From Gammaproteobacteria bacterium (lineage in GTDB: Bacteria; Pseudomonadota; Gammaproteobacteria; Steroidobacterales; GCA-2729495), in assembly GCA_020851975.1 (NCBI GenBank), contig JADZBS010000099.1:1-39515 (forward strand): 39,515 bases of DNA, read 5' to 3'. Of this stretch, positions 1 to 37,396 are shown in pieces. The stretch's first letter is position 1. Each line of letters starts with the position of its first letter. The position numbers and the translations under genes were made by a program. The notes beneath the pieces were generated by a model. The model worked only from the letters and a program-made list of their open reading frames with translations, ran no database searches and was not told the origin of the DNA.

Positions 1-165
1 CGCCGGATCAGCACCCGTAGGAGCGACGCCAGTCGCGACCCGAATCCCGCGACCGCGCCGGATCAGCACCCGTAGGAGCGACGCCAGTCGCGACCCGAAT
101 CCCGCGACCGCGCCGGATCAGCACCCGTAGGAGCGACGCCAGTCGCGACCCGATTCCCGCGACCA
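1..165 (+). repeat. Three tandem 55-bp repeats with GTAG-type REP hairpin
   Basis: Three head-to-tail copies start at 1, 56 and 111. The first two are identical and the third differs at a few bases near its end (151-165). Each copy holds GTAGGAGCGACGCCAGTCGC, with GTAG at 17, 72 and 127. It folds as a GCGAC/GTCGC stem with a GCCA loop. A GTAG tetranucleotide followed by a short hairpin is the layout of REP elements in Stenotrophomonas and relatives (SMAG type), so family membership is likely but not proven. The array lies just downstream of the sucD stop and is cut by the window edge. It may act as the 3' end structure of the sucCD message. Confidence 0.85.
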
Positions 166-12280: not shown

Positions 12281-15049
12281 TCACTGGTCGATGCGGCCGT
12301 GGCACTGCTTGAACTTCTTGCCGGACCCGCAGGGACAGGGCTCGTTGCGGCCGACCTTGCGCCCGTCGCGCACGAAAGGCGAACCGGCCGTCGCCGGGGT
12401 GACCGGAGTCGGCAGTCCGCGTCCCGCCGGGCGCGCCGGCGGCGATACATCCGGCGCCTGGGGCGGCGGCGCCACCGCCGACGGCGCCTCGGCGTGGGTG
12501 AACTGCATGCGTCGCTCGTCCGGGCGGTTGCCGTCGGTGACCGCCTCGACATCCTGCTCGGTGCGCAGCCGCGCCCGGGCCACGATCGAAACCACGTCGC
12601 GCTTCACCTGGTCGAGCAGCATGCCGAACATCTCGAAGGCTTCGCGCTTGTACTCCTGCTTGGGGTTCCTCTGGGCGTAGCCGCGCAGGTGAATGCCCTG
12701 GCGCAGGTAGTCCATGGCAGCAAGGTGCTCCTTCCAGTGGTGGTCGAGCTGCTGCAGCATGACCGCCTTCTCGAGCTGGCGCATCACGCCGGGGCCGATC
12801 TCGGTGCAGCGCTGTTCGTAGGCCTCGCGCATGCCGGTCAGGACACGCGAGCGCAGGCCGTCCTCGTCGAGCGTGCGCTCCTCGGCCAGCCACTCGCGCA
12901 CCGGCAACCGCGTGGCGAACTCGCGCTCGAGGGCCTGCTCGAGACCGGCCGGGTTCCACTGCTCGTCGGGCGTGCCGCGGGGTATGTGCTCGTCGATCAC
13001 GGCACCGACCACCTCGTCGCGGATGCCGTTGATGGCGTCGAGGATGTCCTCGGCGGCCATCAGCTCGTTGCGTTGCTGGTAGACGACCTTGCGCTGGTCG
13101 TTGGCGACGTCGTCGTACTCGAGGAGGTTCTTGCGGGCATCGAAGTTGTGCGCTTCCACCTTGCGCTGCGCCTTCTCGATCTGCCTCGACAGCATCTTGC
13201 TCTCGATCGCCTCGCCCTCGCGCATGCCAACCCGCGCCAGCAGCGCCTTGGTACGCTGCGGGTCGCCGAAGATGCGCATGAGGTTGTCTTCCATCGACAG
13301 GTAGAAGCGGCTCGAGCCGGGGTCACCCTGGCGGCCGGAACGCCCGCGCAGCTGGTTGTCGATGCGCCGCGATTCGTGCCGCTCCGTGCCGACGATATGC
13401 AACCCGCCGGCCGCGATCACCGCGTCATGGCGTTGCTGCCAGTCGCTGCGCCTGCGCGCCTTCTCCTCCTCCGTGGCCTCGGGGCCGAGGGCGGAGAGCT
13501 CGGCCTGCAGGTTGCCGCCGAGCACGATGTCGGTACCGCGGCCGGCCATGTTGGTGGCGATGGTCACGGCGCCCGGCCGGCCGGCATCGGCGACGATCAG
13601 CGCCTCGCGTTCGTGCTGCTTGGCATTGAGCACCTGGTGCGGGACGGATTCGTTCGCCAGCAGCCCCGCGAGGTACTCGGACGTCTCGATCGAGGTGGTG
13701 CCGACCAGGACCGGCTGCTGGCGCTGGCGGCAGTCGCGGATGTCCTCGATGATCGCCGCGAACTTGTCCTTCTGGGTCATGTAGACCAGGTCGGGGTGGT
13801 CGGCGCGGATCATCGGCCTGTGGGTGGGGATGACCACCACCTCCAGGCCATAGATCTGCTGGAACTCGAAGGCTTCCGTATCGGCCGTGCCGGTCATGCC
13901 CGACAGCTTGTCGTACATGCGGAAATAGTTCTGGAAGGTGATCGAGGCGACGGTCTGGTTCTCCGAGCGCACCGCCACGCCCTCCTTGGCCTCGATCGCC
14001 TGGTGCAGGCCATCGGACCAGCGCCGGCCCGGCATGGTGCGGCCGGTGAACTCGTCGACGATGACGATCTCGCCATCCTTGACGATGTACGCCACATCGC
14101 GCTTGTACAGCGCATGAGCACGCAGGCCGGCGGTGAGGTGGTGCATGAGGCGGATGTTGCCCGCGTCGTACAGGCTGTCACCCTCGGCGAGGAGGCCATC
14201 GCGCACCAGCAGCTCCTCGACCTTCTGGTGACCGGCCTCGGTGAGGAAGCACTGCCGGGACTTCTCATCCACGCTGTAGTCGCCCGGCCCGTCCTCGGTC
14301 TTCTGCGGCTCCAGCCGCGGGATCAGGCGGTTGATGCGGATGTAGAGCTCGCTGCCCTCCTCGGAGGGCCCGGAGATGATCAGCGGCGTGCGTGCCTCGT
14401 CGATGAGAATGGAGTCCACCTCGTCGACGATCGCGTAGGCGAGCGACCGCTGCATCTGGTCCTCACGCCGGAAGGCGAGGTTGTCGCGCAGGTAGTCGAA
14501 GCCGAATTCGTTGTTCGTGCCGTAGGTGATGTCGGCGCCATAGGCCGCCTGTTTCTCGGCATGGGTCAGGCCGGCGCGGATCACGGCCACGCTCATGCCG
14601 AGCGCGCGATACACCGGACCCATCCAGCCGGCATCGCGCTGTGCCAGGTACTCGTTGACCGTCACCACGTGCACGCCACGGCCCGGCAGCGCGTTCAGGT
14701 AGGCGGACAGCGTCGCCACCAGCGTCTTGCCCTCGCCGGTGCGCATCTCGGCGATCTTGCCCTCGTGCAGTGCCATGCCGCCGATGAGCTGGGCATCGAA
14801 GTGACGCATGCCGAGCTGGCGCCGCGCTGCTTCGCGCACCACGGCGAAGGCCTCCGGTACCAGCGAGTCGAGGGTCTCGCCGGCGGCGAGCCGGGCACGG
14901 AACTCCGCGGTCCGGCCCGCGAGCGCCTCGTCCGTGAGGGCCTGGACGCCTGACTCCAGGGCATTGGTACGCACCACGATGCCCCCGTAGCGGCGCAGGA
15001 GGCGCTGGTTGCGGCTGCCGAAAAGGCGGGTCAGGAAACTGGCGAACAA
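12281..15049 (-). CDS. secA: Preprotein translocase ATPase SecA
   Basis: This is the motor ATPase of the general secretion pathway, cytosolic and bound to SecYEG. The 922-aa protein has the standard N-terminus ([17 protein letters not shown]), Walker A RTGEGKT at 103-109, the DEVD helicase box ([17 protein letters not shown]), the preprotein cross-linking domain, the second nucleotide fold ([25 protein letters not shown]), and a C-terminal SEC-C zinc motif [14 protein letters not shown]. The start is TTG 15049 with GGAG (15061-15058) about 8 bases upstream. No ATG or GTG is in frame nearby, and the ATG at 15062 is out of frame. It lies between the M23 gene and mutT. No secM-like gene is seen upstream. 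Confidence 0.97.
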
Positions 15050-15154: not shown

Positions 15155-15160
15155 ATTCTA
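15155..15160 (-). promoter_or_regulatory. Possible -10 box of secA
   Basis: TAGAAT on the minus strand (5 of 6 to consensus) lies about 105 bases before the secA TTG. The -35 region is poor, so this is a tentative site. Confidence 0.3.
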
Positions 15161-15216: not shown

Positions 15217-16137
15217 TCAGGTGGACTGGCGAATGAAGCGACCTGGATCGACCGGACGGCCGTGGTGCCAGACCTCGAAGTGCAGGTTCGGGCCGGTGGC
15301 CCGCCCGGTGGCTCCCATCAGGGCGATGGTCTCACCCTGCTGCACGTGGTCGCCGACCGCCACCAGGTTGCTCAGGTTGTGGGCATAGCGCGTGAGGTAG
15401 CCATTGCCGTGGTTGATCTCCACCATGCGCCCGTAGCCCTGGCGCGGCCCCGACCAGGTGACGACGCCGGTGGCGACGGCGACGATCTCGGTGCCGCTGC
15501 GAGCCGCGAAGTCGACGCCCCGGTGGTAGCGCCGCTCGCCCGTGAACGGGTCGTTACGGCGGCCGAAGAAGCTGGAGATGTAGCCGCTGCGCACGGGTCG
15601 CCCGCGCGGGCTGACTTCCGCACTGAGCTTGCGGTCGACCAGGTAGTTCGACAGCAGCGAGAGCTGCAGTTGTTGCTGGTCCAGGCGCAGCCCGATCTCG
15701 TCGAGATCCTCGGCGAGCCCGGCGAGCATCACCGGGCCGGCGATCGTCTCCTCGGGACCGCCGATCGCCGGCGGCGAGGAGAAATCGAACTCGCCACCGC
15801 CGAGCTTGGCCATCTCCACCAGCCGGCTGCCAAGGGCATTCAGGCGGATCACGCTGGCATTGACATGGGCCACCCGGATGGCGAGCGCGGCCACACGATC
15901 CTGGGCGGACTGGCGTGCCGCGACGACCGCGCTACGCTGCGCATCGAGTTCCTCCTGCAGGGCGGCGATGCGCTCGTCGGCCGGCAGGAAGCCGCGCGCC
16001 CGCGCCACGCCATGACCGAGCCCGAAGCTGGCAGCCAGCAAGGCGAGCACCGCCAGGCCGAGACCGGCAAGCAGGGCAGGCGACAGCGCAAAGTGGCGCG
16101 TACCGCGGGTGCCGCGGCAGAAGACGATGAGGTTCAT
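15217..16137 (-). CDS. Membrane-anchored M23 (LytM-domain) peptidase-like protein
   Basis: This is a peptidoglycan endopeptidase family protein acting in the periplasm. ATG 16137 gives 306 aa starting MNLIVFCRGTRGTRHFALS; the open frame upstream runs through a riboswitch and is not coding. One transmembrane helix (ALLAGLGLAVLALLAASFGL, about 21-41) is followed by a coiled-coil-like stretch rich in Ala, Glu and Gln (to about 115), then a C-terminal M23 domain. The zinc-type motif HRGVD and the His of YAHN are present, but the HxH motif reads NLHFEV, with Asn for the first His. Zinc ligands are kept and one catalytic His is lost, so activity is uncertain. The location next to secA is conserved in pseudomonads. 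A GEMM riboswitch lies upstream. Confidence 0.88.
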   Translation of the reverse strand: MNLIVFCRGTRGTRHFALSPALLAGLGLAVLALLAASFGLGHGVARARGFLPADERIAALQEELDAQRSAVVAARQSAQDRVAALAIRVAHVNASVIRLNALGSRLVEMAKLGGGEFDFSSPPAIGGPEETIAGPVMLAGLAEDLDEIGLRLDQQQLQLSLLSNYLVDRKLSAEVSPRGRPVRSGYISSFFGRRNDPFTGERRYHRGVDFAARSGTEIVAVATGVVTWSGPRQGYGRMVEINHGNGYLTRYAHNLSNLVAVGDHVQQGETIALMGATGRATGPNLHFEVWHHGRPVDPGRFIRQST

Positions 16138-16196
16138 GGCGAGTGCCCCCCGCAGGCCGGCGGCCCTGGTTTCGCTCTTTTTCTGTCGGTGGCAGC

Positions 16197-16221
16197 GGCC
16201 CCGCCGGCAGACCGGTGGGCC
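16197..16221 (-). other. GC-rich hairpin in the riboswitch-M23 leader
   Basis: On the minus strand GGCCC-A-CCGG-TCTG-CCGG-C-GGGGCC forms a stem with one small internal mismatch and a 4-base loop, 40 bases after the aptamer. No U-run follows. It may be part of the riboswitch expression platform, acting on translation or Rho access, but I cannot define the switching partner. Confidence 0.35.
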
Positions 16222-16260
16222 CAGGTGCTCGTTCGGGCCGCGCACCCCGGCGCGCCCGCG

Positions 16261-16351
16261 TTCGGCAACCCCGCTATCATAGGAATGACTCCTGTAGACC
16301 GGTGGCTTTGCGTCCCCGCCTTTCGGCGGGTTTGCCTTTGTCGCTCCCGAA
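16261..16351 (-). promoter_or_regulatory. GEMM-I (cyclic di-GMP class I) riboswitch aptamer
   Basis: The minus-strand RNA carries the signature blocks GGCAAACC, GGGACGCAAAGCC and TAGCGGGGTTGCCGA in order. These match the Vibrio Vc2 aptamer nearly base for base as I recall it. P1 pairs TTCGG.AGC (16351-16343) with GTTGCCGAA (16269-16261), keeping the single mismatch seen in Vc2. One helix is CCGCC closed by a GAAA tetraloop. The second arm runs GCCACCGGTCTACAGGAG...TATGATAGC. The base at the ligand-specificity position (G20 in Vc2) appears to be G, favouring c-di-GMP over cGAMP. About 120 nt separate it from the M23 ATG on the same strand. Confidence 0.92.
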
Positions 16352-16380
16352 ACTATGCCCTGCGGATCGCCATATGACAA
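16352..16380 (-). promoter_or_regulatory. Candidate promoter of the riboswitch-M23 transcript
   Basis: On the minus strand TTGTCA (16380-16375), a 17-base spacer and CATAGT (16357-16352) match consensus at 5 of 6 and 4 of 6. The expected start (about 16345) would clip the first bases of the aptamer P1 stem. The true start may therefore be slightly earlier or the promoter elsewhere. Confidence 0.45.
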
Positions 16381-16419: not shown

Positions 16420-16734
16420 ATGTCACATAAAGCGCCACAGTCGCTCGCCGACCTGATCGGCCGGCCCGGGAGTGCCCTCAACGAACTCGCGACCCGGGCC
16501 GAGCGCTCACTCGACCTGGCCGCCACGTTGCGCCAGGGGTTGCCGGAATCCCTGGCGGGTGGACTCGATGCGGCGAGCCTGCATCCGGACGGCACGCTGG
16601 TGGTGACGGCGACGAGCCCCGCCTGGGCGGCGCGGCTGCGTTTCGAGGAAGCACGCCTGCTGGCGCTCTGTGCCGGGCGCGAGCCGCCGGCCATGCGCCT
16701 GCGCGTGCGGGTGACCGCTCCGGCCGCTGGCTAG
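16420..16734 (+). CDS. DUF721 / DciA-like protein
   Basis: This is a small 104-aa cytoplasmic protein of the DUF721 family, whose DciA members help load the replicative helicase DnaB in bacteria lacking DnaC. The visible family pattern is an N-terminal basic and helical region ([20 protein letters not shown]) followed by a KH-like core with [30 protein letters not shown]. The ATG at 16420 is the only sensible start. The gene is convergent with lpxC (4-base overlap at the stop codons) and divergent from the riboswitch-M23 unit. A DUF721 gene next to secA and lpxC is common in gammaproteobacteria. The helicase-loader role is taken from the family. Confidence 0.85.
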
Positions 16735-36902: not shown

Positions 36903-37027
36903 GGTGCAGGGCCGGGCATTCGGCAATCTGGGCCCGAGCGGGGGGGCAAGTGCCGGTGCCGCCGCCCACGCCGTGCACCATGGGCCGGACGTTTTTCCCG
37001 CCGCGGCCGACGACAGAGACAGAAGGT

Positions 37028-37396
37028 GGAGCCGGCCGATAAGCCGGGTTCTGTCGAGGACGATCATCCATCTGGGGCCGCTGTCACCAGCGGCCTCGAG
37101 CGACCTACCCGGAAGCCCGCGGGGCGACGGTGCGAAGACCGTTGCCGGCCCTCGCTGCTTCCCTATTTGGTCTTGCTCCAGGTGGGGTTTTCCGTGCCGC
37201 GGCGTGTTACCACCCGCGCGGTGCGCTCTTACCGCACCTTTTCACCCTTACCCCGGGCCCGAAGGCCCGTGGCGGTATATTTTCTGTGGCACTTTCCGTG
37301 GGCTCGCGCCCCCCAGGCGTTACCTGGCACCTTGCCCGCCGGAGCCCGGACTTTCCTCCCGCAGGTTGCCCCGCGAGCGATCGCCTGGCCGGCTCC
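37028..37396 (-). ncRNA. rnpB: RNase P RNA (bacterial type A)
   Basis: This is the catalytic RNA of RNase P, which trims the 5' leaders of tRNA precursors. The ends pair as P1: GGAGCCGGCC (37396-37387) with GGCCGGCTCC (37037-37028). Universally conserved blocks appear in order on the minus strand: GGGAGGAAAGTCCGGGCTCC, GGTGCCAGGTAACGCCTGG, CCACAGAAAATATACCGCC, GGTAAGGGTGAAAAGGTGCG, GTAAGAGCGCACCGCG, GACCAAATAGGGA and, near the 3' end, GACAGAACCCGGCTTATCGG. Length is about 369 nt. The gene lies just after rsmI. Ends are defined by the P1 pairing and may be off by a few bases. Confidence 0.97.

Follow-up and report, generated by a model that had tools for sequence, protein, structure and literature searches.

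Introduction

How might an RNA that binds cyclic di-GMP (c-di-GMP) make itself felt at a gene for an M23-domain protein beside secA, and would it turn that gene off or on? These questions are raised by the window analysed here, a stretch of 39,515 nucleotides of gammaproteobacterial DNA, for which an initial annotation had proposed a GEMM-I riboswitch that would tie c-di-GMP directly to wall remodelling. Comparing sequences, we arrive at the following reading, to which we give a probability of about 0.6: the element would be a canonical class I c-di-GMP riboswitch with a promoter of its own, and it would control translation of the M23 gene through a relay open reading frame (ORF) in most relatives. 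That leader ORF, overlooked in the annotation, is likely to be the expression platform in most of these relatives. The features of the window are collected in Table 1; loci, genomes, contigs and families of relatives are cited by our own L, G, C and f numbers.

Table 1. Features around the aptamer in the window
Feature	Position	Strand	Basis
-35-like TTGTCA of the predicted riboswitch-M23 promoter	16375..16380	minus	read from sequence
-10-like CATAGT, 17 nt from the -35	16352..16357	minus	read from sequence
GEMM-I (class I c-di-GMP) aptamer	16260..16346	minus	RF01051 and RF03167 matches; covariation in 60 aptamers
Possible leader ORF, +1 frame relative to M23, 48 codons from ATG	16134..16280	minus	inferred
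M23 (LytM-type domain) gene, 306 aa, target	15217..16137	minus	ORF; PF01551 E 1.6e-34
secA, downstream neighbour of M23	12281..15049	minus	Pfam SecA domains
Divergent dciA (DUF721), bounds the promoter region	16420..16734	plus	PF05258 E 4.7e-10

The aptamer and its probable ligand

Is the aptamer real? We regard this as virtually certain. A direct search of the region with RF01051 gave a significant match on the minus strand, where the annotation had seen a GEMM-I aptamer; it spans 16346-16261 and scores 89 bits (gathering cut-off 35, E 2.6e-18). The span first proposed, 16261-16351, does hold the aptamer, but the end falls at about 16346 rather than 16351. When the whole window was given to cmscan, a single aptamer was reported, at 16345-16260 on the minus strand under the label RF03167 (c-di-GMP-I-GGC; 78.3 bits, E 4.1e-17, cut-off 59), with an overlapping hit from the same clan left off the list. 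The core AAAGGCAAACC has one exact occurrence and one more elsewhere with one mismatch; at up to one mismatch, shuffles lead one to expect 0.06 matches.

The helices tell much the same story, with some trimming. P2, which has a GNRA-type GAAA cap, and P3 are backed by covariation, with changes on both sides in 11 of 19 consensus pairs (RNAalifold, 60 aptamers), so that the check for covariation in relatives suggested by the annotation came out in its favour. The GAAA-capped helices that it described come down to one, the cap being found on P2 and on P2 only. Its pairing P1 is there in the cmscan alignment as three model pairs, but this short helix has a non-standard outermost pair and is missing from the RNAalifold consensus of the 60 aptamers.

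As for the pocket, we take its residues to be G20, A47 and C92, with columns assigned by Vc2 numbering; the window has G, A and C in these columns. Across the 60 aligned aptamers (the window and 59 relatives), the A47 and C92 columns are invariant as A and C, and the G20 column is A in L016, L021, L029 and L038. The RF03167 label, which came out on top in cmscan for the window and for part of the relatives, has to be read against this. Presumably, the “GGC” in its name means G in the A47 column, where the RF03167 consensus does have G, unlike the window and all 60 aligned aptamers. On that column we have rejected the variant label, although RF03167 scores above its cut-off, and we have treated the aptamer as the ordinary c-di-GMP type because the A is invariant. 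The genome encodes 16 GGDEF domains, which makes c-di-GMP plausible as the ligand, and we think it very probable that c-di-GMP is what the window's aptamer would bind.

Other GEMM copies

The genome holds five RF01051 matches, the window's included. The other four precede two genes with Ig/fibronectin-type domains, pilM and an AhpC/TSA-type redoxin gene, which is the usual kind of c-di-GMP target set. Long open frames run from the aptamers at G000:C23:56208-56311 and C93:8399-8484 towards pilM and an Ig-domain gene, and chance is a likely cause at this G+C.

GEMM copies elsewhere offered several observations in their own right. Tandem pairs, both on one strand and with starts some 206-244 nt from each other, occur at G011:C28, G025:C27, G059:C34, G074:C200, G032:C152 and G049:C5. 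Large sets are found in G006 (21 matches), G056 (16) and G009 (15), the last with several low-scoring copies that span about 113 nt and are perhaps a spreading variant. The M23-side aptamer of family f10 carries A in place of G20 in five of five genomes (L198, L199, L205, L206 and L208), and 13 other readable GEMMs of the f10 genomes keep G; L214 is odd, and 11 of 30 loci went unread by the pattern. The f10-type change of G20 to A is also listed for the four loci named above and for L110. The text available from two papers ties G20A to cGAMP binding (PMC6274999, PMC9262584).

Promoter and neighbours

A sigma-70-like pair, TTGTCA-17-CATAGT (16380-16352), places the predicted RNA start right where the aptamer begins. 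In the 50 nt before the aptamer, the pattern TTGnnn-16..18-YATWBT was found in 76 of 80 loci, where mononucleotide shuffles lead one to expect 0.9; the misses are L022, its duplicate L122, L094 and L103. A CATAGT-like block is recognisable in most of the 60 aligned rows.

Downstream, 122 nt lie between the aptamer's end and the M23 ATG, much as the annotation had it with its 120 nt, and its LytM/M23-domain protein beside secA holds up through PF01551 and the Pfam SecA domains. secA begins 167 nt past M23 on the same strand; in 52 of the 53 loci tested, secA could be identified downstream of M23, across gaps of 85-413 nt with terminator-like sites in some. Because a TAGAAT in the window's M23-secA gap (15155-15160, with no clear -35) could be a -10 box, secA may have a promoter of its own, and it is possible that it is transcribed separately from M23. 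Elsewhere in the window, 37024-37396 on the minus strand matches bacterial RNase P RNA class A at 310 bits.

Conservation of the pairing with the M23 gene

Does the aptamer keep company with this gene in other genomes? We took the best 80 of 244 M23-protein relatives in named genomes, a choice that favours close kin, and scanned upstream with Rfam. In 59 of these best 80, the aptamer stands directly upstream of M23 on the same strand (18/20, 18/20, 15/20 and 8/20), and among the 21 loci scored as aptamer-less, L034 and L060 hold less than 130 nt of upstream DNA. The 80 loci are titled Gammaproteobacteria, Woeseiaceae, Chromatiales, Proteobacteria and Rhodospirillaceae (five rows) and are not sorted by order. 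Within the window's own order, 105 of 147 genomes have an RF01051 match, and 136 of 147 have one for the M23 protein. From this order we drew 59 M23-locus stretches, mostly one per genus, and searched 58 (L149 left aside) with a model derived from the 60 aligned aptamers, asking for more than 50 bits upstream of M23. The aptamer was present in 38 of the 58, by our count in 29 of 48 genera; of these 38 loci, 27 are new and 11 had already appeared in the first set. RF01051 had no match in 14 control genomes, and in Teredinibacter (L078) and Natronospira (L086) the M23 gene is present with no aptamer match found upstream. One locus, L065, has a second, weaker GEMM-I (L065:1342-1455 minus, 54.5 bits) on the opposite strand, about 1.2 kb from the M23-side copy.

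Broken-looking copies in three loci suggest that some relatives have lost the switch. L015 and L019 keep the promoter and have an apparent broken aptamer in place (L019:2793-2879, 12.9 bits; in L015, upstream of 3001), with the +1 leader frame closed, and L104:2526-2609 holds an apparent decayed aptamer at the same place (19.3 bits). One might therefore ask whether the window's element is itself a decayed or chance likeness with no function, for which the copies in L015 and L019 are some precedent. We give this next to no weight, in view of its 89 bits, its retained pocket residues, the covariation and its conservation within the same genus.

In other words, the sequences indicate that the pairing of aptamer and M23 gene is conserved over many genera of related, mostly uncultured Gammaproteobacteria. 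The annotation had the aptamer directed at the M23 gene, and pairing kept across many genera, with covariation, speaks for that; we hold with considerable confidence that the M23 gene would be the target.

A leader ORF in the relatives

What, then, lies between the aptamer and its gene? In Woeseiaceae-like loci, the leaders measure 126, 123, 120, 105 and 156 nt, all divisible by three, with an exception of 98 nt in L050 and L056. We chose 36 such loci by hand and counted frames relative to M23, excluding the last +1 codon: the +1 frame is free of stops in 34, frame 2 in 1, and frame 0 in just 6, a number on which we rejected an N-terminal extension of M23 as a general explanation. The +1 frame is interrupted in L047 and in L020, where the stop precedes the start codon.

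Of 98 aptamer-bearing rows (59, the window and 38), 80 entered a count over all relatives. The excluded rows are those with a late M23 match (L065, L055, L077), with a 54-nt leader and no ATG (L076, L081), with other short leaders (L118, L123), with an M23 match not from residue 1 (L099, L107, L111, L126, L130) and duplicates (L095, L102, L121, L127, L128, L137). Five duplicates (L096, L098, L122, L139, L142) stayed in, and the assumed M23 start is not ATG in L110, L122, L131 and L143. With ATG, GTG or TTG scored as starts, an ORF that starts near the aptamer's end and stops at the M23 start is found in 72 of the 80 loci against 14.7 expected from dinucleotide shuffles, or in 67 of 75 when the five duplicates are removed. 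Its start falls at -2 to +3 from the aptamer's end in 64 of the 72, its stop is mostly in an ATGA or TGATG at the M23 start (in some loci 7-10 nt into M23), and its length is 31-50 codons, save for a single ORF of 90 codons. The SD-like sequence nearest the start, GCGGGG, forms the 3' strand of helix P3. Eight of the 80 (L047, L079, L089, L091, L093, L094, L131 and L147) have no leader ORF by this scoring.

The arrangement belongs to this gene rather than to GEMM aptamers at large. A start that abuts the aptamer, followed by an ORF of at least 25 codons, occurs in 66 of 80 loci here versus 8 of 38 GEMM loci at other places in the order's genomes (from 40, with the M23 locus L189 and the incomplete L153 excluded), which leaves the idea of a general feature of this order's GEMM switches unsupported. 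Over all 87 distinct aptamer-bearing loci, where an M23 start was not required, 67 have an abutting start; the 20 others include the window, L011, L012 and L145-L148, and also L076, L081, L118 and L123, whose leaders of about 40-55 nt have no room for a relay. Among 18 M23 loci that lack the aptamer (21 minus L034, L060 and L085, which have too little upstream DNA), we saw no frame preference, with open frames in 3, 4 (the +1 frame) and 3.

Is it the peptide that matters? Hardly any constraint was seen on it, with a pN/pS of 0.77 versus 0.87 and 0.85 over 32 pairs, and these values lend no support to a conserved leader peptide. The simplest reading would be a translated gate, in which selection acts on the passage of ribosomes and not on the peptide. 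We think it quite probable that such a leader relay operates in the group as a whole.

A simpler scheme deserves a hearing, in which ligand-driven refolding hides or frees the ribosome-binding site of M23 itself and the leader ORF is incidental. It has a well-known model: Vc2 of Vibrio cholerae, according to the text available from PMC9262584, is a translational OFF switch. The four loci with leaders too short for a relay fit it, and so does the window, whose leader ORF by itself is not above chance. An incidental ORF sits badly with the 72 of 80 loci and with the want of any frame preference where the aptamer is missing, and for 35 Woeseiaceae-like leaders (without L059) RNAalifold gave no conserved hairpin of note in the stretch from the aptamer to M23. 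Eight leaders from the genus of the window and the two named relatives closest to it also showed little agreement in a conserved fold. We judge this scheme unlikely, at something like one chance in a few, and prefer control through the relay ORF.

The window and its closest kin

The window is not the best place to see a relay. It was scored positive for the leader ORF only via a TTG that lies within the aptamer, and the positive scores of L011, L012, L145, L146 and L148 likewise depend on displaced starts. Its candidate start is an ATG at 16280, inside helix P3 with AGGAG before it, the alternative being the TTG at 16268; the TGA of the frame overlaps the M23 ATG as ATGA. The chance of an open frame for the window's leader alone is 0.73, hence not above chance.

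The same layout, GGAG followed after 7-8 nt by ATG in apical P3, is found in the window, in L145-L148 and L091 of the same genus and in the nearest named relatives, L011 and L012. The frame from the P3 ATG is open to M23, ending at ATGA in the window, L011, L012, L146 and L091; in L145, L147 and L148, it runs in frame into M23, and an N-terminal extension is possible there. The chance of an open frame is 0.26-0.73 per locus, with a product of 0.005 over sequences that are related. Because open frames are common at this G+C, we put forward a P3-internal start in this group as a suggestion only, and we are tentative, leaning somewhat against it, about a relay in the window itself.

How the switch might work

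The 3' strand of P3 would serve as the ribosome-binding site of a leader ORF that starts at the aptamer's edge. Bound c-di-GMP would lock P1 and P3 and so hide this site; the leader would go untranslated, and ribosomes would be kept from M23. At low c-di-GMP, the leader would be translated and M23 would follow by termination-reinitiation at the ATGA or TGATG overlap. In the window, the leader would have to start at the codon within the aptamer.

That is, c-di-GMP would turn the gene off, a direction that we favour because the putative ribosome site of the leader lies inside P3 and its start just after P1, and that we consider fairly probable. The reverse, in which c-di-GMP turns M23 on, draws on the fact that GEMM-I switches of both signs are known, a V. 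cholerae pair responding in opposite ways according to the portion of PMC6366702 at hand; the same placement of site and start points to OFF, and we rate the ON direction as rather unlikely.

Folding predictions lend the OFF relay slight help. With the leader kept open, the mean accessibility of the M23 ribosome site goes from 0.39 to 0.45, up in 12 and down in 0 of 31 loci. In the predicted folds of 31 loci without ligand, the leader's own site is 0.23 unpaired on average, and since P3 is mostly paired even without ligand, folding alone fails to explain the apo state.

Could the decision be made in transcription instead? The ligand might set read-through against termination, either at an intrinsic terminator or through Rho when the leader is untranslated. 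In favour, C. difficile class I switches use termination; against, the V. cholerae class I switches work without it, both by the partial text of PMC6366702. An untranslated leader may, by our reasoning, invite Rho. Terminator-like sites turned up in just 2 of 52 M23 leaders by a crude detector (it gave 5 of 39 in other GEMM loci), and we have rejected an intrinsic terminator as the general platform; control at this level as a whole strikes us as improbable. Control of translation through the leader ORF remains the reading that we prefer.

How does this compare with known systems? With Vc2 (RF01051), the window's element shares the aptamer fold, the pocket residues and its position in a leader; unlike in Vc2, the target here is an M23 gene beside secA, and most relatives have a leader ORF directly against the aptamer. 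A likeness to the relay itself comes from Mycobacterium tuberculosis, where, as the accessible text of PMC11260477 reports, the B12 riboswitch of ppe2 hides the ribosome site of an upstream ORF, uPPE2, and acts as a translational OFF switch; the frames overlap as AUGA, and by experiment ppe2 depends on uPPE2 mainly via termination-reinitiation (PMC11260477). Here, a candidate relay ORF runs from aptamer to target-start overlap in 72 of 80 loci, and in the window only from a start inside the aptamer. Unlike the experimental relay of ppe2, ours has another ligand and another aptamer and is read from sequence; its ribosome site would seem to lie within the aptamer, and many genera share the layout.

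The M23 protein

What would be gained by gating this protein? It has an N-terminal membrane segment and a coiled coil, as read from its sequence. Active M23/LytM endopeptidases have two motifs, HxxxD and HxH. In the window, the first is intact as HRGVDF, and the second reads NLH. At the first HxH position, a pattern search over 60 aptamer-bearing loci gave Asn in 54, His in 1 and no match in 5, which by their printed tails have Asn (L012) or His (L076, L079, L081, L089); in 20 aptamer-less loci, it is His in 14 and Asn in 5, with L074 unmatched. Phylogeny alone may be the cause of this split between NxH with the aptamer and HxH without. The replacement of the first His by Asn leaves the enzymatic activity uncertain, and the protein could be an enzyme of low activity, or else serve as an activator or in a structural role. 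Control of wall remodelling, as the annotation had it, keeps the M23 domain in its favour, but with that Asn the remodelling is a guess.

A link from c-di-GMP to a wall hydrolase has been described for EagA, an M23 endopeptidase of Erwinia amylovora; it is of the MepM/ShyB type with a LysM domain and sits at another locus, and the part of the paper available mentions no riboswitch at its gene (PMC7705223). Among the matches listed from open-licence literature, mostly titles and openings of abstracts without supplementary tables, none describes GEMM control at lpxC-dciA-M23-secA.

Implications

This locus offers a conserved candidate connection, open to testing, between c-di-GMP and a LytM-type protein in mostly uncultured Gammaproteobacteria. 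We would give about even odds to the broader picture of a widespread platform, in which the aptamer bears the ribosome site of a relay ORF, translation of that ORF rather than its peptide hands ribosomes to the target through an ATGA-type overlap, and c-di-GMP is wired to a LytM-type wall protein that neighbours the division and cell-wall gene cluster; in one family, this switch would have exchanged its G20, the residue linked to cGAMP selectivity, for A, with G kept in the readable other switches of those genomes. If the relay ORF is true, it would account for the lack of a visible terminator or conserved hairpin between aptamer and M23, and it would be a case of a riboswitch acting via a translated gate beyond the mycobacteria, over many genera.
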